NCBI RefSeq assembly: GCF_016938855.1
Contig: NZ_JAFHAP010000005.1
Location: 124,001 to 188,000, forward strand
DNA: 64,000 nucleotides
Reading direction: 5' to 3'
Source of the DNA: Polycladomyces zharkentensis
GTDB taxonomy: Bacteria > Bacillota > Bacilli > Thermoactinomycetales > JIR-001
This document shows positions 11,764-51,022 of the stretch, one piece after another. Within the stretch, counting starts at the first letter, position 1; each line of letters opens with the position of its first letter. The notes under the pieces are model-generated. The model worked only from the letters and a program-made list of their open reading frames with translations, was not told the DNA's origin and searched no databases. The position numbers and the translations under genes were made by a program.

Positions 11764-12192
11764 TATAAAAAGCGAGCGGGAAAACTCAGCCTTGGAATGA
11801 AAGCGAGTGTCGGACGCGGGAGGGCTTTGTCCCTCTCGCGAGTCCGACATTTTTTGTTTCTTGTTCCCATTAAGTGGGCCGGTAGCAAGTGATGGAAGTG
11901 GACCCTTGCAACACGTCGCAAGTTTGCTCGCGGTCAGACCGTAAAGAAAACATTGAAAGAACGTATCCATTGTTCATGCGGTTATGTGGCAGACAGAGAT
12001 GTCAATGTCGCAAGAAATATCCTGTATCAAGGGATGGGATACGTTCCTGACCTGAGAGACGGACGATGAGAATCAACCTATTCCGGATTGGCCGAAGCCA
12101 TCGTGGATGGATGTGGGGTGCCACGCCGGATGTAGCGAGAAGCCCACGGCGACCTAAAGGGAGTGTCTCCGGTGCTTCAACCGTGTGGGACA
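11764..12192 (+). mobile_element. IS200/IS605-derived element with a tnpB relic (element 1)
   Basis: Left part: AAAGCGAGCGGGAAAACTC, then GAATGAAAGCGAGTGTCGGAC leading into a large hairpin (GTCGGACGCGGGAGGG / CCCTCTCGCGAGTCCGAC, 11810-11848) and TTTTTT. Middle: the C-terminal piece of tnpB. Right part: GAAGCCATCGTGGATGGATG, CCACGCCGGATGTAGCGAG, AAGCCCACGG and a terminal hairpin CCCACGG / CCGTGTGGG. The same left and right ends recur in elements 2 to 5. The right part has the position and shape of the omega RNA that overlaps and follows tnpB genes. Exact borders are uncertain. Confidence 0.7.
11892..12069 (+). pseudogene. tnpB: tnpB C-terminal fragment, frameshifted
   Basis: Conceptual translation reads EVDPCNTSQVCSRS in one frame (11895-11936), then after a one-base shift near 11942 KKTLKERIHCSCGYV followed by ADRDVNVARNIL in another, ending at TGA 12067. 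These match the end of TnpB, the RNA-guided nuclease of IS200/IS605 elements: DP-NTSQ, the zinc ribbon and the DRDxNxARN motif with the last catalytic Asp. The first zinc knuckle has lost its second Cys and the second has lost one residue, so the piece is inactive. The RuvC I and II parts are absent. Confidence 0.85.
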
Positions 12193-12346
12193 AAAATCGG
12201 ACGCCATCGTTGAAGCAGATCGGTGGGCAAACGTAGTGATGTCTCATGACGACCGAAAATATCCGGGCCATTGGCGCACAGGGTATCGGGTTTTTTGTGA
12301 CTGCAGCTGTCAGAGTAAGGTGTGCCTATGTGGCATCATCGATTGC

Positions 12347-12556
12347 TCACGGTGCACTGCTGTTGCTGACGAGGAGGATCGGTGGTTTTTCGCTTGGAAG
12401 AACCTTCTGCCAAACTAAAAATCCGCTAAATCCACCGAAGGGACCTCCAAAACCCCCGAAGGGAAATCCGCCCAATCCACCGAAGGGACCTTTTAAACCC
12501 CTGCCAATTTGATCAGTATATGCTGGATCTTGATGTTGAAGATACTCGTTTTCCAT
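12347..12556 (-). CDS. Small Gly/Phe/Pro-rich hypothetical protein
   Basis: 69-residue reading frame, MENEYLQHQDPAYTDQ then repeated GPFGGLGG/FPFGGFGG units and a short hydrophobic tail. AAGGGGGT lies about 10 bases before the ATG. Low-complexity Gly-rich proteins of this size are common among spore-coat and YjcZ-like proteins in Bacillales, but there is no clear family match. It may instead be a chance frame in a repetitive stretch. The surrounding 12193-12346 and 12557-12797 show no gene. Confidence 0.35.
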   Translation of the reverse strand: MENEYLQHQDPAYTDQIGRGLKGPFGGLGGFPFGGFGGPFGGFSGFLVWQKVLPSEKPPILLVSNSSAP

Positions 12557-12797
12557 GGATGATGTACCCCCTTTTTTGGTTTTGCAGCCTTATAATACTC
12601 AGGTGACGAAGATAGGTGCCTAATTTCGAGGATCGACATCACCAATCTCAATAACATCATCGGCGGGCCAGGGTCGGATGCCGATCACGACATATAACGG
12701 TGAACGGTGCAATCACTGCTCATTGTTGATCGGTAAGCTCATGTCGTGTATTCATACTTCGATCTAACTTAGACATCAGTTGTTCTAAAACTAGTAG

Positions 12798-12823
12798 ACC
12801 CCTGCCGTGGATGGCAGGGGTCC
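12798..12823 (-). terminator. Likely terminator of the sorbitol operon
   Basis: Perfect 10-bp inverted repeat GACCCCTGCC / GGCAGGGGTC with a six-base loop, 25 bases beyond the last gene of the minus-strand operon. The U-tract is weak on either strand. Confidence 0.6.
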
Positions 12824-12847
12824 TTATATATTTAAGCAATTTTCCTC

Positions 12848-13636
12848 TTAGTGCATAACTTGTCCGCCTGTCACATTGATCGACTGTCCCGTCATATAAG
12901 ACGCCTTGTCTGAGGCATAAAAGATAACTGCATTCGCGACATCGTCATATGTGCAGCCTCTTTTTAGCGGCACTTTGTCAATATACACCTGACGCACTTC
13001 TTCTGGTTTAATTCCCAATTTTTTCGCATATTGCGGTGTTAGACTCTGAAACATCGGGGAGTCTAAGAGATTTCCGGGCATAATGGCATTTACACGGATA
13101 TTGTGTTCAGCCAAATCGAGCGCCAAACTCTGTGTCAATCCAACTCCGCCAAATTTGGATGCAGAGTATGCCGTGTTATACTTGCTGCCCACTTTTCCGG
13201 ATTTGGAGTTGATTTGTATAATGTTACCGTATCCTTGCTTGATCATGACACGGGCGACTTCCCGTGCGCAAAGAAAATACCCGGTTAGGTTGACATCGAT
13301 GGTTTTTTGCCAATCTTCCAGACTATATTCAGTCACTTTAGCCGCTTTTGCTACCCCTGCATTATAGACGAGGAGATCGATTTTGGCAAACTTCTTGACT
13401 GTCTGGTCGACCATATGTTTTACTTGCTCTTCCTTTGTAAGATCCGTTGCAATTGCGATGGATTGAACGGGAAAACACTCTTGAATCCTTTTGGCAACTT
13501 TTAGGGCATTTTCAGCATTGATATCAGCAACAACGACATGGTATCCTTCTTCAGCCAATCGATAACTTAATGCCTCTCCGAGGCTTTGTCCTCCACCCGC
13601 AACAATAGCAACCCGGTTTTTGCGCTCTCCACCCAT
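12848..13636 (-). CDS. srlD: Sorbitol-6-phosphate 2-dehydrogenase
   Basis: 262-residue short-chain dehydrogenase that oxidises D-sorbitol-6-phosphate to fructose-6-phosphate with NAD. The cofactor loop is the SrlD-type variant VAGGGQSLGEAL near residue 12; the catalytic residues are Ser in INSKSG, and Tyr/Lys in TAYSASKFG (about 155-163). The C terminus SYMTGQSINVTGGQVMH fits the family. It is the last gene of a PTS operon encoding glucitol-specific IIA, IIB/C and IIC, which supports the substrate assignment. Confidence 0.93.
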   Translation of the reverse strand: MGGERKNRVAIVAGGGQSLGEALSYRLAEEGYHVVVADINAENALKVAKRIQECFPVQSIAIATDLTKEEQVKHMVDQTVKKFAKIDLLVYNAGVAKAAKVTEYSLEDWQKTIDVNLTGYFLCAREVARVMIKQGYGNIIQINSKSGKVGSKYNTAYSASKFGGVGLTQSLALDLAEHNIRVNAIMPGNLLDSPMFQSLTPQYAKKLGIKPEEVRQVYIDKVPLKRGCTYDDVANAVIFYASDKASYMTGQSINVTGGQVMH

Positions 13637-13657
13637 GAAAAACCCTCCTTTTTCTAT

Positions 13658-14023
13658 TTATCTTCTGATTACTTCAATGATTGTCCCAATTTTTACTTCT
13701 GCTATTTCACGATCCTCAAGAACAAGGTTTCCCGGCAAATCGGCTTCTTCGCTGCCAGTAAACTTTAGCGTAATATGCCCCAAGGAAGCGAGGTTTTGGT
13801 TAACCGCGTCGCCAACCGCAGTCACCAAATATTCGACGTCATCCAACTTTAACACGTCTCCGGCTTGAATCGATTCACTGAGTTCATTCACTTGATGGAG
13901 AAAACAATATTCCGCTAAGTCTTCCGGGGCGTTATCCTTAAAAAGAATCATCATCTTTTCATCCAAAAATTGCTCAGCCATCGGGCCAATTCCTGTGATC
14001 ACGGTGTAATAGATCGTTCTCAT
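13658..14023 (-). CDS. srlB: PTS glucitol/sorbitol-specific IIA component
   Basis: 121-residue EIIA of the glucitol family. It takes phosphate from HPr and passes it to the IIB domain; the N-terminal stretch TVITGIGPMAEQF and the later GHITLKF (His about residue 79) match the family. It lies 16 bases from the gene for the IIB/C component and 21 bases before srlD. Cytoplasmic, acting at the membrane transporter. Confidence 0.92.
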   Translation of the reverse strand: MRTIYYTVITGIGPMAEQFLDEKMMILFKDNAPEDLAEYCFLHQVNELSESIQAGDVLKLDDVEYLVTAVGDAVNQNLASLGHITLKFTGSEEADLPGNLVLEDREIAEVKIGTIIEVIRR

Positions 14024-14039
14024 GGTGATTACTCCTTTT

Positions 14040-15071
14040 TTATTGATAGAGCATGAGACTGGCTAGCCAAGCGATAAATACCGTTGGAGCTCCAGTTAGG
14101 AACCGTGAATACAGAACGGATGGCACGCCCACCTCTACGGTTTCTTTTTCAGCCTCAGCCAGCCCTAACCCAACCGGAATAAAGTCAGCAGCTGCTTGAG
14201 AGTTAATCGCAAATAACGCTGGCAATGCCAGATGAGGAGGAATATTTCCCCGTGCGATCTCCACTCCGATTAGAGTACCAACAACTTGTGCGATAACTGC
14301 CCCTGGACCCAGGAACGGAGACAATAGTGGAAAGGAGCATACCAAAGAAATGAGAATCAGCCCCGGCAGTGACCCTGCATAGGGAGACAGATATTTAGCA
14401 AAAAGGTTTCCGATTCCGGACTCCAAAATAATCCCAATCAAGAGAGACACAAAGGCCATAAAGGGCAAAATGGTACGAATCACAGTGTCGATGGCATCCC
14501 GACCTGCCTGGTAAAACACGCTAACCATATTGCCCATTCCCATGCCGATCTTCACCATAAAACCTTTGGGTTCTGTCTGTTCACTAATTTTTTTGTCTGT
14601 GCTATATTGATATTTGGTTATCTTTACATCTTCTTTTCTATTCACATCCGAAACGTTGGTTTTGGCTTCCTGACTTTCGGATGTTTTTTCTTGTTCTGCA
14701 TAAGGCTTGATTTGTTCCGGTGTTACACCGGAGACATAGATGTCTTCTGTGATAAACTTAGCGAGCGGACCACTTTTGCCCGATGCCATGATGTTAATGG
14801 TCTTTATTCTTTTTTGAGGGTATATTCCGCAACGAAGGGTTCCACCACAATTGATAATGACGCAGGCAAGCTCATCATCGGGAACTTTTGTTTTAAAACC
14901 ATCTACTAATTCGCACCCAGTGAGCAATGCAATTTTTTCGGCGATTTCCGGTTTTTCACCTCCGGTAATATAAGCTACTTTATTTTGCTTTTCGTTGGGA
15001 GTGATCACAAGAGGGCCACCAAATCCACCTGGGCCCGCCTCAACCACGATGGGTCGGTACTTTTGGCTCAT
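14040..15071 (-). CDS. srlE: PTS glucitol/sorbitol-specific IIB/IIC component
   Basis: 343-residue protein. The N-terminal IIB domain starts [16 protein letters not shown] and contains the phospho-cysteine region [15 protein letters not shown] (about residues 72-86); a Lys/Glu-rich linker follows (about 125-165), then a membrane domain with four to five helices ending in [19 protein letters not shown] 15071 was chosen over an upstream in-frame start because GGAGGTAACAAAC precedes it. The IIC half is shared with the separate srlA product. Confidence 0.93.
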
Positions 15072-15088
15072 GTTTGTTACCTCCAATC

Positions 15089-15634
15089 TCAAAGCTTGAC
15101 TGTATCCTTCAATTGGATATTTTGTTGTCTAGAGACATACGCAGTGGTAAGGTCCGTCACCCATCCACGAAGAAAGTTGGTCAACACACCTACCAAAAAG
15201 TACATCAGAGCCAAGTTGGTTACCGGTAAACCGCGTTTGGTAATTCCGGCTGCAATTCCTAAAAAGACGAACAGTTCACCTGGGTTCACATGGGGGAATA
15301 AGCCATTCATCGTATGGCAGGAAAACGAAGCTGCTACATAATAGCTGGGTTTATATTTTTCAGGTAAGAATCGCCCCAGTGAGAGTGTCATCGGATTGGC
15401 CAATACAAAGGTACCGATGACAGGCAGGATCAAATAACGGGTAAAGACGTTTTTTCCACATTTTTGTGCAAGCCTTTCAACTCGTTTCTCTCCGATTAAT
15501 CGGACCAGTGCATTCATCGCAACAAGCAACATGATCAAAAGAGGAACAATACCCGTTACTAAGTCGACGAAAACCTTCCCCCCATGCTCAAACAAGGACA
15601 TAAAGCGGTCTGCGTATTTAGCAATTACGTCCAT
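15089..15634 (-). CDS. srlA: PTS glucitol/sorbitol-specific IIC component
   Basis: 181-residue integral membrane protein. It has four to five helices and the motifs [19 protein letters not shown] (residues 27-45) and [20 protein letters not shown] of EIIC-Gut. It forms part of the sorbitol channel with SrlE. ATG 15634 is preceded by GAGGAGTGAGAGGG, which decides the start. The gene is followed after 17 bases by srlE. Confidence 0.92.
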
Positions 15635-15684
15635 CCCTCTCACTCCTCTTTTATACTTGACTATTTCGCAATAAGGGATCAAAT

Positions 15685-16080
15685 CTAGGTATTCAGTAGA
15701 GCTTCACCTCCTTTGTAGACGGTTTTGAAGTTATTTATGGCATTTTGAATAGCCTTGGCAGTCAATTGATCATACTCTCGCAAGTCGCTGTCCGTTAAGC
15801 GAAGCAGGTTTTTCCCTTCAAGCTTCTTCATACTCCTCAGCCGGGAGAAAACCGTTACTCCTTGTATCTTTTCGGCTTTGATGATTGAATGGTTTTTGTC
15901 GATCGCAATGAGGACCACTGTTCCCGCTCGAAATCTGCCAGTGTTTCGTCCTACTACCACTTGACCCAGTTTACACATGGCACGGAATCGTTGGTTAAAA
16001 TGTTTAATTTGCAGATAACCAAGTACACTTTGAACAGCCCAAGATAGTCCAATCATAAGCAGGATCGACCCAGCCATCAC
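15685..16080 (-). CDS. gutM: Glucitol operon activator GutM
   Basis: 131-residue GutM/SrlM-family protein with an N-terminal hydrophobic segment ([20 protein letters not shown]) and the conserved [18 protein letters not shown] region. GutM proteins activate transcription of sorbitol operons; the mechanism is poorly known. It lies between the SorC-type regulator gene and the PTS genes. Two adjacent ATGs are possible starts (16080 and 16077). Confidence 0.88.
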
Positions 16081-16123
16081 TTCACCACCTTTCTTGGTAA
16101 GCGATTACAATTATCTCAATGAA

Positions 16124-17074
16124 TTATTGCTCTTTTAAAATCGCTTCAGCCGTCTCCTCAGTTGTGATCAGAACATTAATAAATTTTCCGCGCATGGCTC
16201 CGATAATGGAAGGAACTTTTTCTACGGACTCGGCAATTCCAATCGAGTACTTCAGCTTTTTAAGTCGATCCAGTTCAATAGCAATCGTTCGTTCGGATAT
16301 TTCGGAGTAGATGATATTACCATTTTGATCAAAATAGCGGGAACAAATATCGCCGATTGCCCCTAATTGATTGAGTTCCTCAATCTCTTTATCACCGAAG
16401 AAGCCTGTCCAAATTAAATTGGATGAACTAATTGGTGCACCGATTCCAACCACTGCAATCGTCAGATGTTTCCAAAGTTCAATGATCTTTTTGAAGTAGT
16501 GAGCGTTGATAATTTCTTCTTTTGTCTCAACCTTTTCGACAATGGCTGCTGCGTCAATAAAGTAGGAAGTTCCGCCGAAAGCGTTTGCAATGGTGTATAC
16601 GATTCTATTTACATGATATTTACTGTCGACAATTCCCGGCCCGCCAACCAGAGGTACGAAGTGAGCATCTCTTTTTGGACATTCACCCAATTGATCAATC
16701 ATTGCTGCCAAAGTAGTTCCCCAGGCAAATCCAACCACATCACCGTCTTTAACAATCCGTTTCAAAAAATGAGCACCAGCCCAGCCGATTGCTTTTTTCC
16801 TCTCTTCCCTGGATTGAACACGACGGGATGGAACAATGATAATTTCTTTCATTCCGTACTTTTTTTCCAAACAATCTTCCAAATCAAAAATCCGATCAAA
16901 TTCACTATTTATGCTGATGGTGACGATTCCCATATCACGGGCCTTTTTTAACATCCGACCTATTGTTGTTCGATAGATGCCAGTTTTAGAGGCGATTTCA
17001 CTTTGTGTCATTTCATCCTCATAATACATTCGGGCAACTTTAACTAAGAGACGTTTTTCCTCCCACTTATCCAC
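16124..17074 (-). CDS. SorC-family sugar-binding transcriptional regulator
   Basis: 316-residue regulator. The N-terminal helix-turn-helix is seen in MTQSEIASKTGIYRTTIGRMLKKAR (residues about 21-45; shown only as its ends here: MTQSEIASKTG and RTTIGRMLKKAR). The C-terminal sugar-phosphate-binding domain begins near residue 60, with GFAWGTTLAAMI and VGIGAP motifs typical of DeoR/SorC effector domains. It most likely controls the sorbitol operon in which it lies, with sorbitol-6-phosphate as the plausible effector; this is inference from context. Confidence 0.9.
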   Translation of the reverse strand: MDKWEEKRLLVKVARMYYEDEMTQSEIASKTGIYRTTIGRMLKKARDMGIVTISINSEFDRIFDLEDCLEKKYGMKEIIIVPSRRVQSREERKKAIGWAGAHFLKRIVKDGDVVGFAWGTTLAAMIDQLGECPKRDAHFVPLVGGPGIVDSKYHVNRIVYTIANAFGGTSYFIDAAAIVEKVETKEEIINAHYFKKIIELWKHLTIAVVGIGAPISSSNLIWTGFFGDKEIEELNQLGAIGDICSRYFDQNGNIIYSEISERTIAIELDRLKKLKYSIGIAESVEKVPSIIGAMRGKFINVLITTEETAEAILKEQ

Positions 17075-17137
17075 AGTTCCTTATCATCCTTATCCTTTGA
17101 AAATCAGACATTACAAATTTCGCCATATTGGTAAACC

Positions 17138-17791
17138 TTACATGTTCGCGTTGTTCCAATCTGTCATAAACTGCTCCAATCCAATGTCAGTCATAGGATT
17201 TCTCACCATCGATAGCAATACCTGATACGGCATCGTTACGGCATGAACGCCAGTGCGCAAGGCGTCAATCACCTGTTGCGGTCCACGGATGCTTGCTGCA
17301 ATCACTTTTGTCTTCACCTGCAGGCTCTGAAACACATCGACGATCTCCTTAATCAGGCTCATTCCATCCCAACCGGTGTCATCCACTCTTCCGACGTAGG
17401 GACTTACATAAGAAACGCCGGCCTTCGCCGCCAAAACAGCTTGCGGAACGGAATAGACAAGGGTCATGTTGGTTTCAACTCCCTTGCGCGACAGTATACT
17501 GGCTGCTTTAAGCCCTTCCATTCCCATGGGGAGCTTGATCACGATGTTCTTAGCCCAGCTGTTTATCTCCAACGCCTCATTTACCATCGACTCTGCTTCC
17601 GTACTGGTAACTTGACACCAGATCTTCCCGTCAACCAGTTTCGCGATGTTCCTGATCAGCGTTTGAAAATCCCGTTTTTCCTTGGCGATTAACGTAGGGT
17701 TTGTCGTTACCCCCTGCAAAATTCCCAATGGCATCACTTGTGCAATCTGCTCGATATTAGCCGAATCAATATAAAGCTCCACGTTCCTCAC
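17138..17791 (-). CDS. Transaldolase-like fructose-6-phosphate aldolase
   Basis: 217-residue TIM-barrel aldolase of the TalC/FSA group, the short transaldolase subfamily. The N terminus ELYIDSANIEQI, the Schiff-base lysine in NIVIKLPMG (about residue 85), and PYVGRVDD (about 131-138) are typical. It either moves dihydroxyacetone units like transaldolase or cleaves fructose-6-phosphate to dihydroxyacetone and glyceraldehyde-3-phosphate. It is the first gene of the sorbitol operon, whose end product is fructose-6-phosphate, so a role in its further use is plausible. Confidence 0.88.
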   Translation of the reverse strand: MRNVELYIDSANIEQIAQVMPLGILQGVTTNPTLIAKEKRDFQTLIRNIAKLVDGKIWCQVTSTEAESMVNEALEINSWAKNIVIKLPMGMEGLKAASILSRKGVETNMTLVYSVPQAVLAAKAGVSYVSPYVGRVDDTGWDGMSLIKEIVDVFQSLQVKTKVIAASIRGPQQVIDALRTGVHAVTMPYQVLLSMVRNPMTDIGLEQFMTDWNNANM

Positions 17792-17835
17792 CTTTTTTCT
17801 GCGTTTTTGAAAAAAGCGATGATATTTTTAGTAGA

Positions 17836-18210
17836 TTACTCCATCATCTGCTTGATTGCCTCGGCGGTGGCTGACACGTTATACGGAGTGATAATCACAA
17901 TTTATCCAGACTTCGCAACGGGAACTGTTCCGGTGGTCGCAACTGGAAAACGTTCTGTCAACGCTTTACTGGCCAACTCCTCGTACAGCGCTTCTTCGTC
18001 GAATATTTTGCCCCGCCCTGCGAGAGTACGGTTTTATAAATCGGCAAACAGATGTTCGGCGTACGCGTCATACGGGTACAGGTCGTACGCGAGGGTGCGC
18101 ATGCAAAATCCTTTCTTCCGCTTGGCTACCGCCTTTCTGATAGCACCCAAGCCGAGAATCCCAACATCTTGCCCCAAATTTCCCCTCCGACCGATTTGCT
18201 CCACCCGCTA
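17836..18210 (-). pseudogene. Degraded 2-hydroxyacid dehydrogenase (SerA-like)
   Basis: On the minus strand the reading frame gives VGILGLGAIRKAVAKR followed by GFCMRTLAYDLYPYDAYAEH, then a stop; a later piece gives AGRGKIFDEEALYEEL, and the last VIITPYNVSATAEAIKQMME before TAA. These are the NAD-binding fold, the ARGG/DEEAL region and the C-terminal TPH-ASTAEA segment of D-2-hydroxyacid dehydrogenases, with two internal deletions. The catalytic Arg-Glu-His parts are missing or changed (TPYN for TPH). The gene is dead. It lies upstream of the sorbitol operon on the same strand. Confidence 0.75.
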
Positions 18211-18490: not shown

Positions 18491-18521
18491 AAAAAGTCCT
18501 CAAACAGTGAGGACTTTATCC
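18491..18521 (-). terminator. Minus-strand terminator
   Basis: AAAGTCCTCA / TGAGGACTTT with a five-base loop; read on the minus strand it is followed by TTTTTTCTTTT. It overlaps the end of the decayed regulator gene at 18500-18800. Confidence 0.75.
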
Positions 18522-18944: not shown

Positions 18945-19255
18945 CAACGACATACCGGGGGAAAAGGTGGAGTGGTTCACCCACTCCCGAAGAGGGAAGC
19001 CGGTGAAAATCCGGCGCGGTCCCGCCACTGTGAATGGGGAGCCGGGCCGTATGTCACTGTCGAAAGACGGGAAGACACGGCCGCCAGGGGGCTGGAGGAT
19101 CTCTGGTATTCTCAGGTTGATGGAAAGATGGGTTTTCCAGCGACTTTAGCCAGGCGAAGTAGGAGCGAGTGGGAAAGAGATCCACCAGAATCAACCTGTT
19201 TACCACACTTGCAGCCCCCATGCGATGATCCATGAGCCAGGAGACCTGCCTTTTC
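18945..19255 (+). ncRNA. Cobalamin riboswitch with an enlarged internal arm
   Basis: The B12 box is intact: GGGAAGCCGGTG, AAAATCCGGCGCGGTC, CCGCCACTGTGAATGGGGAG (18995-19042), CACTGTCGAAAGACGGGAAG, and the 3' box GAGCCAGGAGACCTGCC (19234-19250). Adenosyl- or other cobalamins bind this aptamer. Between the last two conserved parts there is an extra stretch of about 135 bases (19085-19220) enclosed by GGGGGCTG / CAGCCCCC. A transcription terminator at 19381 forms the expression platform. It precedes nrdA, so ribonucleotide reductase is expected to be off when B12 is abundant. Confidence 0.93.
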
Positions 19256-19282
19256 CGACAACACCGTTGACCTACGAGGATA

Positions 19283-27317: not shown

Positions 27318-27595
27318 ATAAAGCGCGGGAGGGAAAACCCAACCCTTCAGGTTTGCGATGAAAGCGAGCGTCGGATGCGGAAGGGCTTTGTTCCTTGCTC
27401 AAGTCCGGCAGAATTTTATTCAATCGATCCGAGAAATTCCAAAACACTGAAAACTACGATACGAGCAACAACTCGCAGAATGAAAATCACGGCTTGGCCT
27501 AAGCCATCGTGTATGGATGTGGGCAGCTACGCCAGATGAAAGCCCGGCACCCCAAAGTGAGTGCCTATGGTGTTTCACCGTGTGGGGCAAGTCAG
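27318..27595 (+). mobile_element. IS200/IS605-derived element without genes (element 2)
   Basis: Left end: AAAGCGCGGGAGGG, GATGAAAGCGAGCGTCGGATG and the hairpin GTCGGATGCGG...AAGTCCGGC, followed by a promoter-like GAATTTTATTCAATC. Right end: AAGCCATCGTGTATGGATG, CTACGCCAGATGAAAGCCC, then a hairpin with CCGGCACC and GGTG...CCGTGTGGGG. About 280 bases with no tnpA or tnpB codons. The layout matches element 4 almost block for block. It lies inside the DUF3592-type gene. Confidence 0.65.
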
Positions 27596-27767
27596 GGGGT
27601 CTTGTTCCATTTCCGCAAATATGGCGTGGAGGTAACAGGAGAAATGATTGACCTGGAAGCGAAGGATCACGTCGAAGATGGTGTCAAATCCGTCGTTTAT
27701 CTCCCAACGTTCCGATTCATCGATTAAGGGGGGAGGAACGGATTTACAGAAAAAGCCGTCTGAAAGC

Positions 27768-28203
27768 CCATGGTTTCAATCGTGGGATGAAAGGTGGCGT
27801 TGCTCGGCATCTCCTTTTGGGGATGGTAAGAACAACCAATTTTCTGTATAATCGAACGTATGAGCGGTGCTCATTCCACTGGTAGTGGGTTTATTCCTGT
27901 GGACGTCATGGTATGGTGTTCCAGTGACGAACTCATCTCTCCCACTGGGTAAAACCATGAGAGTGGGAAAAAGGAACTAGCGTACTGGTAATACCACGGG
28001 CACTTCCGTTGGTCGCAGGTATGCCGCCCATGTGGGTACATGTGCCCAGTGGCGCAGAACTATATGGGACGGGGTGATGACACACCCCTTAGCTTGAGGG
28101 TTGCCCGAAGCAGAAATGGAATGAGGGCGTTAACTACTCAAGAATCCCACGGCGACCAAAGATAGTATCTGTGTACTTTAGCCGTGTGGAGTGTCAAAAG
28201 CTG
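27768..28203 (+). mobile_element. IS200/IS605-derived element carrying a long structured RNA (element 3)
   Basis: The left end (CCATGGTTTCAATCGTGG, GATGAAAG, GCGTTGCTCGG, ATCTCC...GGGGATG, AACAAC, then TATAAT at 27847) matches the left end of element 5 over about 80 bases. The right end (CCCACGGCGACC ... GCCGTGTGG, 28146-28189) matches elements 1 and 2. The 290 bases between hold no reading frame. Sequences on both sides belong to one DUF3592-type gene, which sets the borders to within a few bases. Confidence 0.7.
27857..28195 (+). ncRNA. Candidate HEARO/IscB-type omega RNA
   Basis: Begins about 5 bases after a TATAAT box with ATGAGCGGTGCTC and contains a series of strong hairpins: CTCTCCCACTGG...GAGAGTGGG, GGTAATACC, GGGCACTTCC, CCCATGTGGGTACATG, GGGGTGATGACACACCCC. 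The 3' part GGGCGTTAACTACTCAAGAATCCCACGG runs into the transposon right-end hairpin. From memory this order resembles the HEARO RNAs that guide IscB nucleases; a covariance search was not possible. No iscB gene is nearby, so any partner would act in trans. Confidence 0.5.
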
Positions 28204-34878: not shown

Positions 34879-35694
34879 ATGCCGGACATCATCATCGGTC
34901 TTATCTTGGGCATGGTGGAAGGGTTGACGGAGTTTGCACCCGTTTCTTCCACCGGTCACATGATTCTGGTCGGTCATTTACTCAAATTTCAAGGGACAGA
35001 TCGTGCTTCCACGTTTGAAGTGGTCGTTCAGCTTGGATCGATTTTGGCTGTTGTGGTGGTCTTCTGGAAGAGAATCCTCAGCATCGTGGGGTTGTACAAA
35101 TTGCCGGAAGAAGGGACGAATGGGGAAAAGGGCCATCTCAACGCTCTTCACATCCTGTGCGGGATGATTCCCGCCGTGATCGTGGGCGGATTATTCCATG
35201 ATTACATCAAAGAGAATTTATTTACTGCCAATACCGTACTGATCGGCTTGGTTGCCGGCGGGGTGATCATGATCATCGCGGAGTTGTTCCGCCGGGCGCG
35301 TCCCAAAGCCACCAGTCTGGATCAGGTTACATACGGACAGGCATTTACGGTCGGCTTGTTTCAATGTTTGGCCCTGTGGCCCGGATTTTCGCGGTCGGGT
35401 TCGACGATTTCGGGCGGATTGTTGGTGGGCATGAACCACAAAACCGCTTCGGAGTTCACGTTTATTCTCGCCGTACCCATGATGGTGGCCGCTTCGGCCA
35501 AAGATTTGTATGAAAGCTGGGACAAGCTGTCCGTTCATGATCTGCCGTTGTTCATCACAGGTTTTGTGACAGCGTTTGTGGTGGCGATGTTGGCAATCAA
35601 ATACTTCCTCAAGCTGATCGACAAGGTGAAGCTGACCCCGTTTGCCCTCTACCGTTTCGCCGTTGCGGTGGTGTACGGGCTGCTTGTCCTTTAG
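34879..35694 (+). CDS. uppP: Undecaprenyl-diphosphatase UppP (BacA)
   Basis: 271-residue membrane phosphatase with about eight helices. Conserved motifs are [17 protein letters not shown] at residues 10-26 (the catalytic Glu cluster and first Ser/His) and [18 protein letters not shown] (about 173-190, catalytic Arg and Ser). It recycles undecaprenyl pyrophosphate for cell-wall synthesis and gives bacitracin resistance. It stands alone; element 5 begins three bases after its stop. Confidence 0.95.
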
Positions 35695-35696
35695 GA

Positions 35697-35949
35697 TAAG
35701 CGAGTGAGAATCCTCCCCATTTCAATGGGGCAGATGAAAGCGAGCGTTGCTCGGTATCCCCCTTGCGGGGATGCTTGGAGCAACAATATAATACTGACAT
35801 GGAGTGCGGAAACACTTAAAACGATATCTGAGCGAAAACTCGGTAAACGAAACCAAACCAGGCATGGGACGTGCCTTCGTGGATGGATGCAGGGCACTGC
35901 GCCAGATGAAGCGAGAAGCTCGCCATTTCAATGGCGATGTAGTTCACAG
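35697..35949 (+). mobile_element. IS200/IS605-derived element without genes (element 5)
   Basis: Left-end hairpin CCCCATTTCAATGGGG (35715-35730) and right-end hairpin CGCCATTTCAATGGCG (35921-35936) share the core CATTTCAATG. After the left hairpin come GATGAAAGCGAGCGTTGCTCGG, a second hairpin (CCCC..GGGG) and AATATAAT. The right part has CTTCGTGGATGGATG, GCGCCAGATGAAGCGAGAAG and ends GTAGTTCAC. The two subterminal hairpins are what TnpA transposases recognise. It has no coding capacity, and the right part is the place of an omega RNA. Confidence 0.75.
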
Positions 35950-35956: not shown

Positions 35957-35997
35957 AAAAACCTGTTGGGTTGATCCAACAGGTTTTCCTTTTTTCA
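35957..35997 (+). terminator. Terminator before cbiZ
   Basis: AACCTGTTGG / CCAACAGGTT with a short loop, then TTCCTTTTTTC. It probably ends uppP or element 5 transcripts. Confidence 0.85.
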
Positions 35998-44237: not shown

Positions 44238-44274
44238 AGAAGAACGTATGGCAAGAAACAGAGGAGGGACGCAT

Positions 44275-45039
44275 ATGCCTCAAATCGGACTTCAACTGTA
44301 CACCTTGCGGAGGGAAATGGGACAGGATATGGCGAGCGTGCTGCACGCCATTGCCCGATTGGGTTACCGCGGGGTGGAATTTGCCGGATTTCACGGAAAG
44401 TCCACGGAGGAAATCCGGCGGTTGTTGCATGAGACCGGATTGTATCCGATCGCCAGCCATGTGGGATTGCAGGAGCTGAAAACGACTCTCCCGGACGTGA
44501 TTTCCTTTCATCGGGCCATCGGTTGCGACACGCTGATTTGCCCGTGGGTGGAGCCGGAACGGATCACCCGACCGGATGAGGCGCAAGCGTTGGCCCGCGA
44601 TCTGATCGACATCGCCCGCGTATGTCGGGAACACGGTTTGCGGTTTGGTTATCACCATCACGACTTTGAACTGGAACATCGGGTGCAGGATCGACCGGTA
44701 CTGGATTGGTTGTTGGAGCAAACGGCGGAAGCGGGTGTAAAGGTGGAACTGGATGTTTATTGGCTGAAAAAAGCGGGAATGTCGGAAACCGGGTATATTC
44801 GTCGCTATGCCGGCCGCGTACCGTTGATCCATCTGAAGGATATGGAGGATGCACCGGACCGCTTTTTCGCCGCCGTCGGTTCCGGTCTGCTCGATGTGGG
44901 GGCGGTGATGACGGCCGGGACGGAAGCGGGTACAGAATGGTTTATTGGGGAACAGGATGCGTGCAGGGAGGGAGTTTCTCCGATAGAGGAAGTGAAACGG
45001 AGTGCGGCTTATCTGAAAGCCGAAGGATGGATGGAATGA
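44275..45039 (+). CDS. Sugar phosphate isomerase/epimerase family protein
   Basis: 254-residue AP-endonuclease-2-like TIM barrel. It opens with QIGLQLYTLRREM, and metal ligands are expected at FGYHHHDFELE (about residues 123-133), ELDVYWLKKAG (about 158-168), IHLKDMED and the Glu in EWFIGEQDAC. Relatives such as IolE and YcjR act on sugars or inositol derivatives, but nothing nearby names a substrate. GAGGAGGGACGCAT precedes ATG 44275. It overlaps the GNAT gene by four bases. Confidence 0.85.
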   Translation: MPQIGLQLYTLRREMGQDMASVLHAIARLGYRGVEFAGFHGKSTEEIRRLLHETGLYPIASHVGLQELKTTLPDVISFHRAIGCDTLICPWVEPERITRPDEAQALARDLIDIARVCREHGLRFGYHHHDFELEHRVQDRPVLDWLLEQTAEAGVKVELDVYWLKKAGMSETGYIRRYAGRVPLIHLKDMEDAPDRFFAAVGSGLLDVGAVMTAGTEAGTEWFIGEQDACREGVSPIEEVKRSAAYLKAEGWME

Positions 45040-45497
45040 AGGTGCGTTTGCGACCGTCCACGGAGGCAGATTTCGCGTTTGTGTTTACGCTGAACAAAAC
45101 CAACATGCGCCGGTACGTGGAGCGTTTGCGCGGATGGAACGACGCCGCCGAGCGGGCGGACATGAAACGAAAATTCCGACCCGGATCAGATCAGATCATC
45201 GAAGTGGACGGACGTCCCGCCGGCGTTTTCGCTGTGGATCGCCGGGCGGATGAGTGGCATCTGCGTCATATCGAGCTGTTGCCCGCTTTCCAAAACCGCG
45301 GGATCGGCACGGCTCTGATCCGGCAGCTGCTCGAGGAAGCGCATCAACAGGGGGTGGCTGTCACGCTGCAGGTGCTCAAAATGAACCCTGCCCGCCGTTT
45401 GTACGAGCGTCTGGGATTTCGCGTGGTGGGGGAAACGGAGATCAAATACCGAATGAAAGCAAAGGAGGAGAAACATGCGAATCGCCCTGTTTTCTGA
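45036..45497 (+). CDS. GNAT family N-acetyltransferase
   Basis: 153-residue acetyltransferase. The acetyl-CoA loop is PAFQNRGIGTALI (about residues 84-96), preceded by LRHIELL and followed by LKMNPARRLYERLGFRVV, typical motifs A and B. The substrate is unknown. It starts within the stop of the isomerase gene and overlaps the phosphoesterase gene by 23 bases, forming a tight three-gene operon. Confidence 0.9.
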   Translation: MKVRLRPSTEADFAFVFTLNKTNMRRYVERLRGWNDAAERADMKRKFRPGSDQIIEVDGRPAGVFAVDRRADEWHLRHIELLPAFQNRGIGTALIRQLLEEAHQQGVAVTLQVLKMNPARRLYERLGFRVVGETEIKYRMKAKEEKHANRPVF

Positions 45498-46194
45498 CGT
45501 TCACGGAAACGTGACGGCTCTGCAAGCGGTGTTGCGGGAGCTCCGCGAGCGGGGGCCGTTTGATGCCGTGGTGTGTGCGGGGGATATGGTCTTGATGGGT
45601 CCTTCCCCGGAGGAAGTGGTGGATCTCTTACGGGCAGAAGGCGTCAAAATGGTGCGTGGCAATTGCGATGATATGGTGTCGGGACTGCTTCCGATCGAGA
45701 CAGAAGCAGGTTCCGATCCGGTACGGCTGGAACGGTTTCGTGTCCATGTCAAATGGACCCGCGAACGGTTGGGTGAAGAACGGCTGGACTTTCTCCGTTC
45801 GTTGCCGGTGACGCGGACATTTGATCCCGCTCCCGGTCAATCCCTGTTGGTATGCCATGCTTCTCCGTCATTTACGAACCAACCGTTGCCCCGTCCGGAT
45901 CTGTTGAGAACGGAAGGCGCAAAATATTACGGTGATACGGAAGCACGCGTCATCGCTGTCGGTCATTGGCATCAGCCTTCCTTAACATTGTTGGGAGAGC
46001 GGATCGTGTTAAACGTTTCTTCCGTTTCCATTCCCATGGACGGACGGCCGATCGCCTGCTTCACGATCGCCGAATGGCGGGACGGCATTTGGAGCTTTGA
46101 GCAATATCGGGTGGATTATGACATTGCGCCGGAAATCCATCGGATCAGAGAACGGAATATGCCTTTGCCGCCGTGGCCCAAGCTGGAGGAATGA
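45475..46194 (+). CDS. Metallophosphoesterase
   Basis: 239-residue calcineurin-like phosphoesterase. Metal-binding motifs are LFSDVHGN (residues 5-12), CAGDMVLMG (about 37-45), RGNCDDM (about 62-68), a His in VCHASPS and GHWHQPS (about 163-169). It is of the YfcE/MJ0936-like type that acts on phosphodiesters or phosphoproteins. AAAGGAGGAGAAAC precedes the ATG. It is the last gene of the small operon. Confidence 0.9.
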   Translation: MRIALFSDVHGNVTALQAVLRELRERGPFDAVVCAGDMVLMGPSPEEVVDLLRAEGVKMVRGNCDDMVSGLLPIETEAGSDPVRLERFRVHVKWTRERLGEERLDFLRSLPVTRTFDPAPGQSLLVCHASPSFTNQPLPRPDLLRTEGAKYYGDTEARVIAVGHWHQPSLTLLGERIVLNVSSVSIPMDGRPIACFTIAEWRDGIWSFEQYRVDYDIAPEIHRIRERNMPLPPWPKLEE

Positions 46195-46520
46195 TGGAAG
46201 ACCGGGACATCATTACGGGTGCATGATGTCCGTGGGGCGGTGGTGCTAGTGGAGCATTTTTCGGAAGCGAAGACCAACAGGTGACGGTGAAACGACAGGT
46301 GTGACTCAATCCATCGCCTGGGACGGGTGTTTTGGGGCGAGTTCGTTCAGTTGTGAATTCGGTTTGTCCGTTTTCTTTGACGGAGACGGTTTTCTTCTCA
46401 AATTTGTTAAAGAAAGGAGCTGCGGAACCGATTGTTTCACACCGGATAAGGGATGGGCGTATCTCATTCAGTGAAGTGTGTTGCGATCAGTCCACAGCTC
46501 CTCGAGCGGGGAGGTGAAGG

Positions 46521-46546
46521 GGACAATGGAAGCGGAATCATTGTCC
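46521..46546 (+). repeat. Small hairpin in the gap after the phosphoesterase gene
   Basis: GGACAATG / CATTGTCC with a ten-base loop, followed by a T-rich stretch (TTACTTCTATTATT); perhaps a weak terminator. The rest of 46195-46829 contains no gene or motif I can name. Confidence 0.45.
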
Positions 46547-46829
46547 TTACTTCTATTATTCCCGCGATTTTCGTTGTTGAAAATAGAGAAAAATATTCCA
46601 TCCAGAAATTGATAGGGATGCAGGCACTGAGGTGTCTGAGAGCGAAGTGGGTGTTTTTTGTCTGGTCCTGCGGTATAGTAAGTGTTGAAACCGGATCATG
46701 GATCAGGAGAAAGGTGGACTGTTTTCCACGATCAACCTTTCGGTCCGGCGATACGGGAGAGAGGAAATAAGCACACCTGGATCAAAAAATGAATGGGCCA
46801 GATATGCCCTTTGTAAAGGAGCGGTTGTG

Positions 46830-47246
46830 ATGCATCAAAATCCGAGTGATGCCGTGCGGCGCGAAATTTTGTCGTCGGCCCGAAACATTGCCGTCGTCGG
46901 TTTGTCCGACAACCCGGAGCGAACCAGCCATATGATCGCCAAAGCCATGCAGGATGCCGGTTACCGGATTTTTCCCGTCAATCCCAATCTATCCGGTCCG
47001 GTGCTGGGAGAAAGGCCGTATGCCTCGCTGTTGGAGATCGAGGAGCCGATCGATATCGTTGACGTGTTCCGCCGCAGTGAGCATGTAATGCCGATTGCCA
47101 AGGAAGCGGTGGAGGCGGGGGCCAAAGTGCTGTGGCTGCAACAGGGGATTGTGAATGAGGAAGCGGCCGATTATGCCAAAAAACACGGCATGACCGTCGT
47201 GATGGATCGTTGTATCAAGGTGGATCATGCCTTGTTGGTACGGTGA
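46830..47246 (+). CDS. CoA-binding protein (YccU/YneT family)
   Basis: 138-residue Rossmann-fold protein. The nucleotide loop is NIAVVGLSDNPERTSHMI (about residues 16-33), followed by YRIFPVNPN and LWLQQGIVNEEAA, all conserved in the CoA-binding domain also found in succinyl-CoA synthetase. Its function in bacteria is unclear, perhaps CoA-dependent regulation or protein CoAlation defence. AAAGGAGCGG before ATG 46830 fixes the start, although the frame is open further upstream. Confidence 0.9.
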   Translation: MHQNPSDAVRREILSSARNIAVVGLSDNPERTSHMIAKAMQDAGYRIFPVNPNLSGPVLGERPYASLLEIEEPIDIVDVFRRSEHVMPIAKEAVEAGAKVLWLQQGIVNEEAADYAKKHGMTVVMDRCIKVDHALLVR

Positions 47247-47360
47247 GCAAACAGCGTCCATCGAGGTTGCATGCGGGATCAAACACAATCTGCAGTTGTC
47301 AGGCTGGGAACAAGCGGTGTCCTCAAAGGGTTCGGGTGGCCGGGTATGTTTACAGTTGAA

Positions 47361-47560
47361 GGCGTGTCTGAGGGGGCATTGTTTTTCCAGGCGAACGACG
47401 GACTGGATGCTTCGAAACGATAAGCGCGGGAGTAAGATCGCGGGTTGTTCCCTCCCGACGGAGCGAACTTGCCCGTGTTCTGATCTTCAAGGCTCCTGGC
47501 GGCTTTTTGCATTGCCTTCTTGCGGGCGCTGGTGGAGCGATCCGGGAAAACGGTGTGCGT
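47361..47560. repeat. Structured intergenic repeat, copy 4
   Basis: Begins with GGCGTGTCTG (47361). The core (47420-47486) is ATAAGCGCGGGAG, GATCGCGGGTTG, spacer with GGAGCG, ACTTGCCCG, GTGTTCTG. A 3' block GGGCGCTGGTGGAGCGATCC then GGGAAAAC matches copy 3. The right terminal repeat is not clear. Confidence 0.5.
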
Positions 47561-47733
47561 GAGATTTGCCGGACATATTTTCGGCAATGGATGTACCCGA
47601 GCCACAGACGGTGTTTTCCTCTTCCGCAAAATTGGGTAGCCCAAGGTTGCAACACGTCGGAGTCCGGTTCATAATAAAAGTTAAGGAATGGTTAACAGTC
47701 AGCACATCAACGAACACCGAAGAGGTGATTCCG

Positions 47734-47919
47734 GTGGAAGCGATGAAGTTGTCCACGCTGGTACTGACTGTTTCACCCGATCTGTACGATCTGTTGAAGG
47801 AAGAGGAGCTGAACTCCCACATCGTGATCCGGGGAGACGTGTCTTCCATCGGACCGGAAGACCTGAATGAAATCATCGCTCGCACGATCGAGTATCATCA
47901 TAGCGCCCCTTATCACTAA
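47734..47919 (+). CDS. Small conserved-looking protein of unknown function
   Basis: 61 residues: MEAMKLSTLVLTVSPDLYD, then LKEEELNSHIVIRGDVSSI and PEDLNEIIARTIEYHH. It is acidic and likely alpha/beta. The start GTG 47734 has GAGGTG six bases upstream; ATG 47743 is the alternative. Codon use and the following terminator favour a real gene. I do not recognise the family. Confidence 0.6.
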   Translation: MEAMKLSTLVLTVSPDLYDLLKEEELNSHIVIRGDVSSIGPEDLNEIIARTIEYHHSAPYH

Positions 47920-47928
47920 GGGGCGCGT
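47902..47928. terminator. Bidirectional terminator
   Basis: GCGCCCCTTA / TAAGGGGCGC with a four-base loop between convergent genes; T-rich on both sides only weakly (GTTGTTGTG). Confidence 0.7.
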
Positions 47929-47936
47929 TGTTGTGT

Positions 47937-49304
47937 TCATTCGTATTTCTTTTGCATCTCCTGCTGTTTCTGTTCGATGAAAGCCTGCAGCTTGTCTCTT
48001 TTCTCGGTCAAAATTTGATCCAATTTGTCATAGCGTTGTTGTCGGTATGATTCCAACGCATTGTATCGATCGATGATTTTGTTGCTCAGTTCGGAATACT
48101 GACCGTCCTGCAGCTTGTTTTTACGATCCAAAAATTCCAAGGCGCTATCCAGATGTTTGCGTTCCGTCTGCAGTTTGTTGTCGAACTGGCTGCCGGCATA
48201 TCCGGCGATCAGCTCAAGACGTTGCCATTTGGCATTGTATTGATCGTTGACGTCCAGCCAGTTGGTGTTGCCCCAGTCGTTCCAGGCCAACCACATTTGG
48301 GTGTATTGCTCTTCCAGATACATCTCCAGATCCTGTTGATCCTTGGCCGTTGAATATTCCCCGCCCCCGGCATCGGCCACCGCCTGCAACGCTTTTTGTC
48401 CGGCATTGTCCACATCAAATCCGATAATGTTGACCACCGCCTGGATGTTGGATTGATGCAAAGACTGTGCCGCCGCTACCGGATCGCCGCCGCAAGTTTC
48501 AATGCCGTCGCTGACGATGTAGACGATATTCTCCGTATTTGGACCGTTGTGTGCGGCCAAGTCCGATTGGGCGTCCCGGATGGCCTTGGCGAGCGGGGTC
48601 CAGCCGGCCGGGCGGAAACGTCCCAGCGCTTGTTGGAATCGGGCGGCGTCGTAGGTACCGGAGGGATACACCACTTCGCTGCTGTTGCAGGACATCGCTT
48701 TGTCCTTGGCCTGATTGGTCCCTTTGTGACCGTAGACCCGCAGGGAAACGGTCGTCCCGTCCGGAAGCTGGGAGGCAAACCGCCCGATCGCCTCTTTGGC
48801 CTGTTCCATTTTGGTTTTCCCGTCAATTTTCCCGGCCATGCTGCCGCTGGCGTCCAGCAGGATGGCGACATTCAGCTTTTTGGCGTCCGGAGCTTGAACG
48901 CGCAAGTCATCCGGTGCTTTGTTGCGGATTTCGAAGGACGTGTCAAAGTGATCCAGCTTGTCCACGATCGGTTTGTAATTCTCGGCCAGATAATAGATCA
49001 GCCGGTTGTATAATTGATCGGTGGAAAGGCCGTTCGGCAATTTGGCCAATTCGCTTTGCAGGGCCGCCGCATCATAGTCGTAACCCGCATATTTGCCGGG
49101 TCCTTCCTTCACCATGCCTTCCGGTGTCGTGGCTGCGCGGAAATCTTCGGGTTTGATTTTTTGCCAAGGTTCAAGTGGTTCTGTTTTTTTGGCCTGTGGT
49201 TTTGTCTGACCCGGTTTGGATGTCTGGGCCGTTTGCATCAGCAAAGAGCAACCCGAAAGCAACAAAACGGAAAAAATGATGACAAAGGACAACCACTTCT
49301 TCAC
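47937..49304 (-). CDS. VWA-domain lipoprotein
   Basis: 455-residue surface protein. The signal peptide has a lipobox (LLLSGC, about residues 14-19). A von Willebrand A domain spans about residues 140-340 with a complete metal site: DASGSMAGK (Asp-x-Ser-x-Ser), a Thr after TWPSG-like loops, and IVSDGIETCGGDP (Asp). The C-terminal 110 residues are charged and helical (EQKQQEMQKKYE), likely a coiled coil. It probably binds another envelope protein. GAGGTGATCAT precedes the GTG start at 49304; an upstream frame exists but lacks a ribosome site. Confidence 0.88.
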   Translation of the reverse strand: MKKWLSFVIIFSVLLLSGCSLLMQTAQTSKPGQTKPQAKKTEPLEPWQKIKPEDFRAATTPEGMVKEGPGKYAGYDYDAAALQSELAKLPNGLSTDQLYNRLIYYLAENYKPIVDKLDHFDTSFEIRNKAPDDLRVQAPDAKKLNVAILLDASGSMAGKIDGKTKMEQAKEAIGRFASQLPDGTTVSLRVYGHKGTNQAKDKAMSCNSSEVVYPSGTYDAARFQQALGRFRPAGWTPLAKAIRDAQSDLAAHNGPNTENIVYIVSDGIETCGGDPVAAAQSLHQSNIQAVVNIIGFDVDNAGQKALQAVADAGGGEYSTAKDQQDLEMYLEEQYTQMWLAWNDWGNTNWLDVNDQYNAKWQRLELIAGYAGSQFDNKLQTERKHLDSALEFLDRKNKLQDGQYSELSNKIIDRYNALESYRQQRYDKLDQILTEKRDKLQAFIEQKQQEMQKKYE

Positions 49305-49397
49305 ATGATCACCTCGGATGGATTGGGTTGACAAATTTCATGGTACAACACGTTGAAATGAAAATCACTACGAAAAAAGTTTGAATGTGAAAGGCCA

Positions 49398-50657
49398 TCA
49401 CATCGGCAATGACTGCTGCCGCTCGGCAGGAACCGTCTCCGTCGAGCGCAACAACCGGGGCAGGCGGAAACTCATGATCATGGCGTAAAGGATCAACCCG
49501 GCACCGGAGACGATAAACACCCGGCTCACCCCGATCCACTCGGCCAGCCAAGCGCCGACCATCGGGGCGATCAGGATGGCGGCGTTTTGTACGGCGGTGA
49601 CGACGCCACTCACCCGTCCCATCAAGTGTTCCGGGGTTTCGGTTTGCAACAGGGTACTGAAGGAAACCGTGGAGAATGCGTTGATAAAACCGATCATCCA
49701 CCAAATGCACACGTAAAAAACGAAGTCTCGTGGTAACCATCCCATGCCGCCAAGTCCTTTGAGTAAAGTGAGCAAGCCGAACAACACATGGGAGCCCAGG
49801 ATCAGCCCCAACGGATGCGGGGCTTTTCGCCACGCTCCCAACACGATCGAACCGATCACGTTGCCGCAACCGACCACAGCCACCAGCGTGCCGTAGGCGG
49901 TGGAAGGCATGCCCATCACGCGGGTCCACACGGAACCCAAACCCTCGATCAAAAAGATCATCCACATGGCGATGGAGGAACAGATCAGACCGGACAGGAG
50001 AACCGACCGCGCCCCGATGTGACCGATTCCCTCGCGAAATTCCAACCAAAAGTGCTGTGTTTGCCGTTCTTCTTTCAGTGCCGATCTTGTTTTCGGTAAA
50101 AACATCAAAAAACAAGCGGATAACACGAAACCGACCGCTTCCACCAGAAAGGCCGTGTGCGGGGATGTCACCGTCAAAAGTGCCGCTCCCAGTGAAGGAC
50201 CGATTATTTTGGCGGCGGTCAGCACCGCCTGACTGAGTGCGTTGGCTTGTTTCAGCAGATCGGCCGGGACGGTGCTGCGGATCATCCCTTGCCGTGCGGG
50301 GTCGAACATCGCGCCGCATGTGCCTTTCAAAAAGACCAGCAACAGGAGCAGATAGTAGTTGTCCACCCAGTACAGTCCCAATACGAGCAGTACCCGGGCG
50401 ATGTCGCAACCAATCATGATTGTCTTGCGGGAGTAACGATCGCTCCATACGGCCAGGAGCGGCCCGCACATGATCCACGGCAAGCCGAAGACAACAAGAA
50501 ACAGTCCCATTTCACCTGGACCCATTTTCCACTGAAACACCAAAATGGCGTTCAATGCGATGAAATCCAACCAATTGCCCAGATCGGAAAAAATCTGACC
50601 GCTCATCAACAGGCGGAATGGTCGGACTTTTAGCGGCAAGAACAGAGAGGCTTTCAT
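49398..50657 (-). CDS. MFS transporter
   Basis: 419-residue major facilitator with 12 helices. The loop between helices 2 and 3 reads GPLLAVWSDRYSRKTIMI, the MFS signature D-R-x-x-R-K. It is closest in style to EntS/multidrug exporters (DHA3 group), with PARQGMIRSTVPADLLKQAN around residues 115-134. The substrate is unknown. AGGGAGTATACG precedes ATG 50657. The upstream gap contains element 4. Confidence 0.9.
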   Translation of the reverse strand: MKASLFLPLKVRPFRLLMSGQIFSDLGNWLDFIALNAILVFQWKMGPGEMGLFLVVFGLPWIMCGPLLAVWSDRYSRKTIMIGCDIARVLLVLGLYWVDNYYLLLLLVFLKGTCGAMFDPARQGMIRSTVPADLLKQANALSQAVLTAAKIIGPSLGAALLTVTSPHTAFLVEAVGFVLSACFLMFLPKTRSALKEERQTQHFWLEFREGIGHIGARSVLLSGLICSSIAMWMIFLIEGLGSVWTRVMGMPSTAYGTLVAVVGCGNVIGSIVLGAWRKAPHPLGLILGSHVLFGLLTLLKGLGGMGWLPRDFVFYVCIWWMIGFINAFSTVSFSTLLQTETPEHLMGRVSGVVTAVQNAAILIAPMVGAWLAEWIGVSRVFIVSGAGLILYAMIMSFRLPRLLRSTETVPAERQQSLPM

Positions 50658-50761
50658 CGTATACTCCCTTTCGACAAAAAATGGGATCACCCTGTTTTCT
50701 TATCCCATTGTAGCAATTTTCGGACCGTCATATCAGTGTAATTCAAAAAATAGGGAATAAT

Positions 50762-51022
50762 AAGCCCGTTGTCGAGTGAGAGGGAAAACACAGCCTTTTC
50801 GAATGGGGATACCAATGTCGTCGGATGGGAAAGTGCTTCCGCCCTCTCGCAAGTCCGACGGAATTTTGATACAATCAAGCCGAGGAGTGTGCAATGCAAA
50901 ACCACAATGCGAGCGGTGACTCGTGAAACAAGCGGAAACAGGCTTGGATGCAGCCATCGCGGATGGAGTGGGTGGCCACGCCGGATGAAGAGAGAAGCCC
51001 GCGACTTTGGCTGTGTGAGCAA
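50762..51022 (+). mobile_element. IS200/IS605-derived element without genes (element 4)
   Basis: Left part: GTCGAGTGAGAGGGAAAAC, GTCGTCGGATGGGAAAG with the hairpin partner CTCTCGCAAGTCCGACGG, then GAATTTTGATACAATC. Middle: CACAATGCGAGCGGTGACTCG. Right part: GGCTTGGATGCAGCCATCG, GGCCACGCCGGATGAAGAG, AGAAGCCCGCGACTTTGG, CTGTGTGAG, which is very like the 3' end of TnpB-type omega RNAs. It has no transposase codons. It ends about 57 bases before the ypuI start. Confidence 0.72.

Follow-up and report, generated by a model that had tools for sequence, protein, structure and literature searches.

The solo units described here, short elements that lack tnpB between IS200/IS605-type ends, are PATE-type elements that carry a predicted TnpB guide RNA. 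We think it probable that they are selfish elements which are mobilised by TnpA and supply guides in trans to TnpB, with selection acting on the lineage while it spreads. They came to light through five elements in a 64,000-nucleotide stretch of the Polycladomyces zharkentensis genome (the window), and all five were compared with the host genome (G000, a 3.32 Mb draft in 22 contigs).

In TnpB systems the omega-RNA, or reRNA, has a covarying scaffold at the right end of the element, its guide lies in the right flank, and the target motif corresponds to the left flank. The right ends studied here are abundant. Used alone as a query, the right end of the first element (A) gave 40 scored places in G000. 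A covariance model built from 27 right ends (R1) gave at least 117 matches at E <= 0.001 in the 3.3 Mb of G000, some of them to the terminal-hairpin part of the model only. Two other genomes of the genus have at least 35 and at least 39 matches, and matches occur in at least 21 of the 61 genomes searched, G000 included. Among the candidates scored, none of the 19 genomes that belong to the class but not to the order has a match. All copy counts are lower bounds: with R1, 150 of 1657 candidates were scored in G000; with the module model R2 described below, 150 of 670; and in the relatives, 60 or 67 candidates per genome. With at least 117 matches in 3.3 Mb and none in the 19 genomes outside the order, the five elements are above chance.

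The right end is a covarying RNA, and its structure and position point to the TnpB omega-RNA kind. In an alignment of 106 matches (104 distinct) fitted to the structure, 92.9% of the cells in five helices are paired and 24 of 32 pairs show a double change. Double-change cells number 190, against 37 in shuffles. The covariation score is 0.259, compared with 0.136 when shuffled and at most 0.045 when slid, and on all five measures 0 of 500 shuffles were as high. As a check on the fitted 104-sequence alignment, we aligned 32 right ends picked for diversity with MAFFT, which involves no such fitting, using the structure of the tnpB-bearing element L005. Here 93.2% of cells are paired, with 147 double-change cells against 48 in shuffles and a covariation score of 0.505 against 0.198. 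The measure 'further pair types' was not above shuffles (313 of 500), and the number of pairs changed on both sides was equalled or exceeded by 20 of 500. Our first alignment, of 27 sequences alone, gave a weak signal (28 of 500 shuffles for double-change pairs). Helix P1 has changed from GGCTT/AAGCC to GGCAT/GTGCC and GGCTC/GAGCC, and P3 from GTGG/CCAC to GCAG/CTGC. The compensatory changes in both alignments mean that the right-end structure is real and old. Single-sequence folding is modestly better than for shuffles (z -1.5 to -2.35). The conserved structure sits at the right end and stops at the element border, the mark of an omega-RNA. The first-pass annotation had assigned the right part of the elements to the guide-RNA region of TnpB, and the strength of the covariation bears it out.

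A known Rfam family was considered and rejected: at the gathering score the window gives a cobalamin riboswitch only (18948-19267, 95.7 bits). Below that score there are weak matches for element D and for L126, a solo unit of the sister genome G001, and C has no match up to E 1.

R1 has five matches in the window (12082-12198, 27488-27595, 28142-28189, 35858-35947 and 50938-51027). These coincide with the five elements of the first-pass annotation, all of which are present near the places it gave. All lie on the plus strand, and their borders were set from empty-site junctions and common ends. The annotation had joined them in one family, and here we differ from it: A derives from a tnpB copy that has decayed, B and E from type-1 solo units that have decayed too, D is a solo unit in good condition, and C belongs to a second TnpB lineage. 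The common ends proposed for the five fail in C, where the left end shares no more than short stretches with the others (by eye) and on the right only the terminal hairpin fits the model (R1 positions 58-106, window 28142-28189, E ~4e-4). Similarly, the -10-like box ascribed to each left end is there in C, D and E, is changed in B and was not seen in A.

Element A (11764 to ~12198) is a type-1 element with a left end at 11764-11849, a tnpB remnant (by eye) and a right end whose tip is eroded (12082-12198). It alone has tnpB codons, as had been noted before (PF07282, 25.1 bits, below the cut-off of 26.3); no transposase or tnpB frame lies inside B, C, D or E. The module model R2 gives no match to A. 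Its counterparts in G001 (L125) and a second sister genome, G002 (L205), adjoin the same left-flank gene; its right flank aligns poorly. With a decayed tnpB and the same neighbour gene on the left in all three species, A was ruled out as a solo unit.

The solo units of the window are kept to different degrees. B (27320-27594) matches R1 and the module model and is eroded: it has TTTAT on its left, its -10 box is changed and the partner strand of P2 is deleted. E (50771 to ~51028), recognised by the same two models, keeps its -10 box (50870-50875) and has an eroded P2 and right tip; the tip is lost in both A and E. D (35695-35947) is the best preserved, and alone among the type-1/D copies of the window it still looks complete. 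To its left is TTTAG (35690-35694). Inside are a -10-like TATAAT (35787-35792), two module hairpins (h1 at 35803-35816 and h2 at 35828-35843, together 35803-35843) and a core of P1-P3 with the terminal hairpin (35858-35947), predicted to be omega-RNA from the R1 match and covariation. A promoter scan found none in D. The guide of D would begin at 35948. A terminator-like stem follows at 35958-35987, and would stop the RNA of D about 50 nt into the flank.

What distinguishes the solo copies is the sequence 5' of P1, which in tnpB copies is the end of tnpB and in solo copies a dedicated module. In type-1 and D-type copies, a -10-like box (TTTTGGTACAAT or ACAATATAAT) and a gap that is usually ~10 nt (5-12) precede h1 (AGTGCGAAAACACT); then come a stretch like TTAAAACTACTAT, h2 (GAGCGAAAACTC), ~18 nt and P1. 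The -10 box is conserved among solo units. A model of the module built from 20 copies (R2) finds at least 56 places in G000. The module abuts 51 of the 117 R1 matches with a nearly constant overlap, and two further R2 places lie 109 and 216 nt before an R1 match. A tnpB domain precedes 11 of the 117, and module and tnpB occur together in none of them. The two are alternatives at the 5' side of the core: independent draws would give zero overlap with a chance of 0.0009, though the exclusion follows from the anatomy. Moreover, the TnpB of L005 and two TnpA queries found no homolog in 30 module loci searched up to 1.5 kb on each side.

The module is found across the order. At E <= 0.01, R2 matches at least 16 of the 61 genomes (G000 included), from 12 genera and three families, and none of the 19 genomes outside the order, among the candidates scored. 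Of the matched genomes, thirteen belong to other genera and hold between one and four R2 places each, some weak; several of those places are without a recognisable right end. In L126, a young copy, the promoter-like sequence is TTGCAA, 17 nt and TACAAT with TG before it, and L124 and L125 have promoter-like sequence of the same form (by eye). For h1 and h2, just two of nine pairs show double changes and 225 of 500 shuffles were as high; double-change cells (3 of 500) and score (2 of 500) were above most shuffles.

C (27748-28197) was assigned to the second lineage by its ends. Over 66 nt at the left end and 89 nt at the right it is 92% identical to L007, an element that has a TnpB with a 379-aa frame and a fragment of tnpA. 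A place for C in one family with A, B, D and E was accordingly rejected. In L007 the RNA core directly follows the tnpB stop codon; C-type solo copies have a module of ~120 nt in place of tnpB. In C itself a -10-like TATAAT (27847-27852) is followed by the dedicated 5' RNA module (27862-27978), which is absent from the tnpB copies L007, L013 and L012, and by a putative omega-RNA core with terminal hairpin (27979-28197), delimited by the L007 comparison and RNA structure. C gives 43 match rows in G000. Eleven cover at least positions 20-397, and some of the others are pieces of one element. Four C-type copies in G000 (L270, L271, L272 and L275) are 98.1-99.5% identical over aligned positions. 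RNAalifold of 15 C-type copies gives 78 pairs, 19 with double changes, at -95.6 kcal/mol.

One feature recurs in both lineages. A similar insert in the loop of the terminal hairpin, of the type GCGACC..AGGGAGTGCC..GGTGCTT, is found in the window at ~12147-12182 and 28157-28182, and in L150; copies that lack it occur in both lineages as well (L005, L007). Conversion between the lineages, or one common TnpA, is perhaps the source.

The elements insert 3' of a short fixed motif, TTTAT/TTAT for type 1 and TTTAG for the D type. A typical unit starts with AAAGAGCGAGCGGG directly after TTAT and ends on GGGGCAAGTCAC. Subterminal hairpins at both ends are common to type 1 and L005, and to C and L007; for D, the right end alone was compared with D-type tnpB elements. 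We compared the joined flanks of eight elements with sister genomes. The uninterrupted sites for L124, L127, L041 and L024 read TTTAT (GTTAT in L127) and then the right flank, with no target duplication. Matches for L126, L076 and L048 span the join, but the motif is changed or an indel lies there, and L125 has no empty site in this comparison. The empty site of the D-type elements L101 and L102 is TTTAG and then the right flank, again with no target duplication. Within the window, the site of D has diverged at the join in G001 and G002, B and E have no clean empty site in the sister genomes, and C has TTTAC on its left. IS200/IS605 elements insert 3' of a short motif without target duplication, and by this rule the empty site is the motif plus the guide.

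We also considered L125 and L170 as a shared insertion and rejected this on the alignment, which has different sequence in G002. Where G001 carries the solo unit L125:1559-1825, the same two flanks in G002 enclose ~180 nt that differ from it, and a TTAT-like motif lies at both breakpoints.

The host genome encodes predicted nuclease-competent TnpBs of both lineages, L005 and, for C, L007. The 394-aa frame of L005 keeps VGVDLG, FEDLN and DRDVNAARN, the three acidic motifs (by eye), scores above the cut-off for PF07282, PF01385 and PF12323, and matches ISDra2 TnpB (8bf8) with E 1.7e-63. Its right end agrees at 88 of 92 positions with the right ends of L124-L126, three young solo units of G001. 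A matching TnpB elsewhere in the genome had been anticipated, and these full-length frames, one with almost the same right end, are what was expected. Full-length frames are also present in G001 (L131) and G002 (L138), and in other genomes six full-length TnpB matches that adjoin right ends of this kind share 62-76% identity with the L005 protein. Among the 11 right ends with tnpB in G000 none is D-type (by eye), so that D would depend on a cousin TnpB; the D-type TnpB L059 is 76% identical to that of L005. Relic tnpB copies are A, L009, L014, L016, L017 and L019.

The first-pass annotation had suggested a search of the genome for an intact TnpA, and none turned up. The G000 search yielded three fragments and no full tnpA, in a 22-contig draft where a copy at a contig break could be missed, and in the one-contig G001 it yielded one fragment and no full tnpA. 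Several full-length tnpA genes are found in G002, G009, G018 and G034, one of them in G018 beside a TnpB that resembles the host type (by eye).

L005 has another small frame. On the minus strand, between its left end (302-401) and tnpB, is a ribbon-helix-helix-like frame (PF20605, E 7.8e-6, 26.4 bits, below the cut-off of 27.2) that points away from tnpB and occupies the expected place of tnpA. It is also in L009 and, in another form, in L004 (by eye). By title, the literature searched holds no TnpB with a ribbon-helix-helix protein.

Several of the window's five elements are on the path of decay. We made 15 ortholog comparisons (several on a common locus). In each of the 10 where the right flank could be aligned, conservation is lower in the right end (0.78-0.91) than in that flank (0.88-0.97), some flanks being coding. 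Fixed copies therefore decay, without strong selection. Young copies look different in G001. The right ends of L124, L125 and L126 are identical at 92 of 92 positions, against 17, 18 and 6 differences between the pairs in the other 171 sites (p 0.0009, 0.0005 and 0.09). The pairs are not independent, and L125-L126 taken by itself falls short of significance (p 0.094). The right end of a fourth copy, L127, agrees at 91 of 92. Such identity could come from gene conversion or, alternatively, from a requirement of TnpA. A conservation profile (65 rows picked from 106 matches, 40 kept as full length) gives a mismatch of 0.080 in the core and 0.162 in the middle, and is biased because the copies were found by their right end; we rely on the pairwise comparisons of young copies in its stead.

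Elsewhere in the window, at 56091-56494, three similar stretches of ~90 nt lie ~155 nt apart and match a flank of L127 too. They resemble a very small gene repeated in tandem.

Guide supply in trans is the most likely mechanism for the solo units, in which we infer transcription, TnpB binding, cutting and the role of TnpA from sequence. The units would be non-autonomous IS200/IS605-type elements turned into short guide-RNA genes between transposon ends. A promoter right behind the left-end hairpins of a well-kept copy would start an RNA in which the dedicated 5' module comes first and the omega-RNA core and terminal hairpin follow, with the opening bases of the right flank as guide. A TnpB that a different element of the lineage encodes would bind it. 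The site cut would be the target motif joined to the right flank, which is the empty site left by excision or present on a copy without the unit, and repair after cutting would restore or spread the unit. TnpA would move the unit in trans. Single fixed copies decay, and selection would act on the lineage while it spreads. That the elements express guides for a TnpB encoded elsewhere had been the proposal of the first-pass annotation. The covarying RNA, the full-length TnpBs and the conserved -10 box speak for it, and it withstood those of its refuting conditions that were put to the test. Function in all five finds no support, with A a tnpB copy in decay and B and E eroded.

The units resemble PATEs (palindrome-associated transposable elements) and IS200/IS605 MITEs, which are short, have IS605 ends only and are presumed to be moved by TnpA in trans. 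PMC7290912 describes one of ~271 nt in Halanaerobium. Unlike the PATEs described there, units of the window type combine a promoter-like box with an RNA module that is conserved at the 5' side, and they are numerous in a genome that also encodes TnpBs of their lineage. It is unlikely, though worth serious weight, that ours are plain miniature elements in which only the hairpin ends matter, which TnpA moves and whose omega-RNA core is baggage that came along with the right end. Fixed copies decay, and type-1 and D-type copies insert as ordinary IS200/IS605 elements do; yet the core is kept in young copies though the middle differs, and kept with compensatory changes across the order, and transposition alone has no known need of a promoter-like box and a conserved module. 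The use of solo units by TnpB is, for its part, something we infer.

Neither of two further explanations fares as well. TldR systems set a precedent for guides that serve the host, and it is very improbable that some copies here have likewise been domesticated as small RNAs of the host, for example guides or the 5' leaders of genes. In two species, G001 and G002, a right end of the solo type with no left end recognised (L136:2497-2603 and L142:2800-2915) lies directly before the ribosome site of a cmk-like gene (by eye), and its guide position would be the ribosome site. This right end is less well kept than the flank to its right (0.88 against 0.95), nine other ortholog comparisons agree, and a host role of fixed copies finds no support in them. 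We give hardly any credence to independent internal deletions of tnpB elements, each leaving a dead relic. A, L009, L014, L016, L017 and L019 fit that description, but 51 solo copies have one module and core spacing that is absent from all 11 tnpB copies, and some solo copies are young. The deletion reading holds for A; in the case of B, C, D and E the shared module contradicts it.

Supply of guides in trans, the reading we prefer, has partial parallels. The omega-RNA or reRNA of TnpB in ISDra2 and ISGst elements, reportedly described by Karvelis in 2021 and Meers in 2023, has the same right-end scaffold, right-flank guide and left-flank motif; unlike it, the RNA of solo units would have as its 5' part a separate module and not the tnpB end, and TnpB would act on these units in trans. 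Altae-Tran is said to have described standalone trans-acting omega-RNAs of IscB in Ktedonobacter in 2021. These too are guide-RNA genes apart from the nuclease gene; IscB is of another nuclease family. Among the papers listed in the literature searched, which include PMC7290912, PMC9956272, PMC11870625 and PMC12558985, none dealt with tnpB-less IS605 elements that supply guides. As far as that literature goes, what is new is a dedicated 5' module that occurs in two lineages unrelated to each other.

A wider reading can be offered tentatively. At least two unrelated TnpB lineages in the order may each have given rise to solo guide-RNA genes with their own promoter and 5' module, and one or two TnpBs with dozens of guides, one per insertion, could then sustain or drive elements that encode no protein; we hold both parts to be possible and short of probable. 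If this is true, TnpB would serve protein-less elements as a common resource, beyond protecting its own copy. It would also be a natural multi-guide system, near the step from a transposon nuclease to CRISPR-Cas12 with its separate effector and guide genes. The two unrelated kinds of 5' module are concrete RNAs to test, and the empty sites of the young copies would be ready targets.
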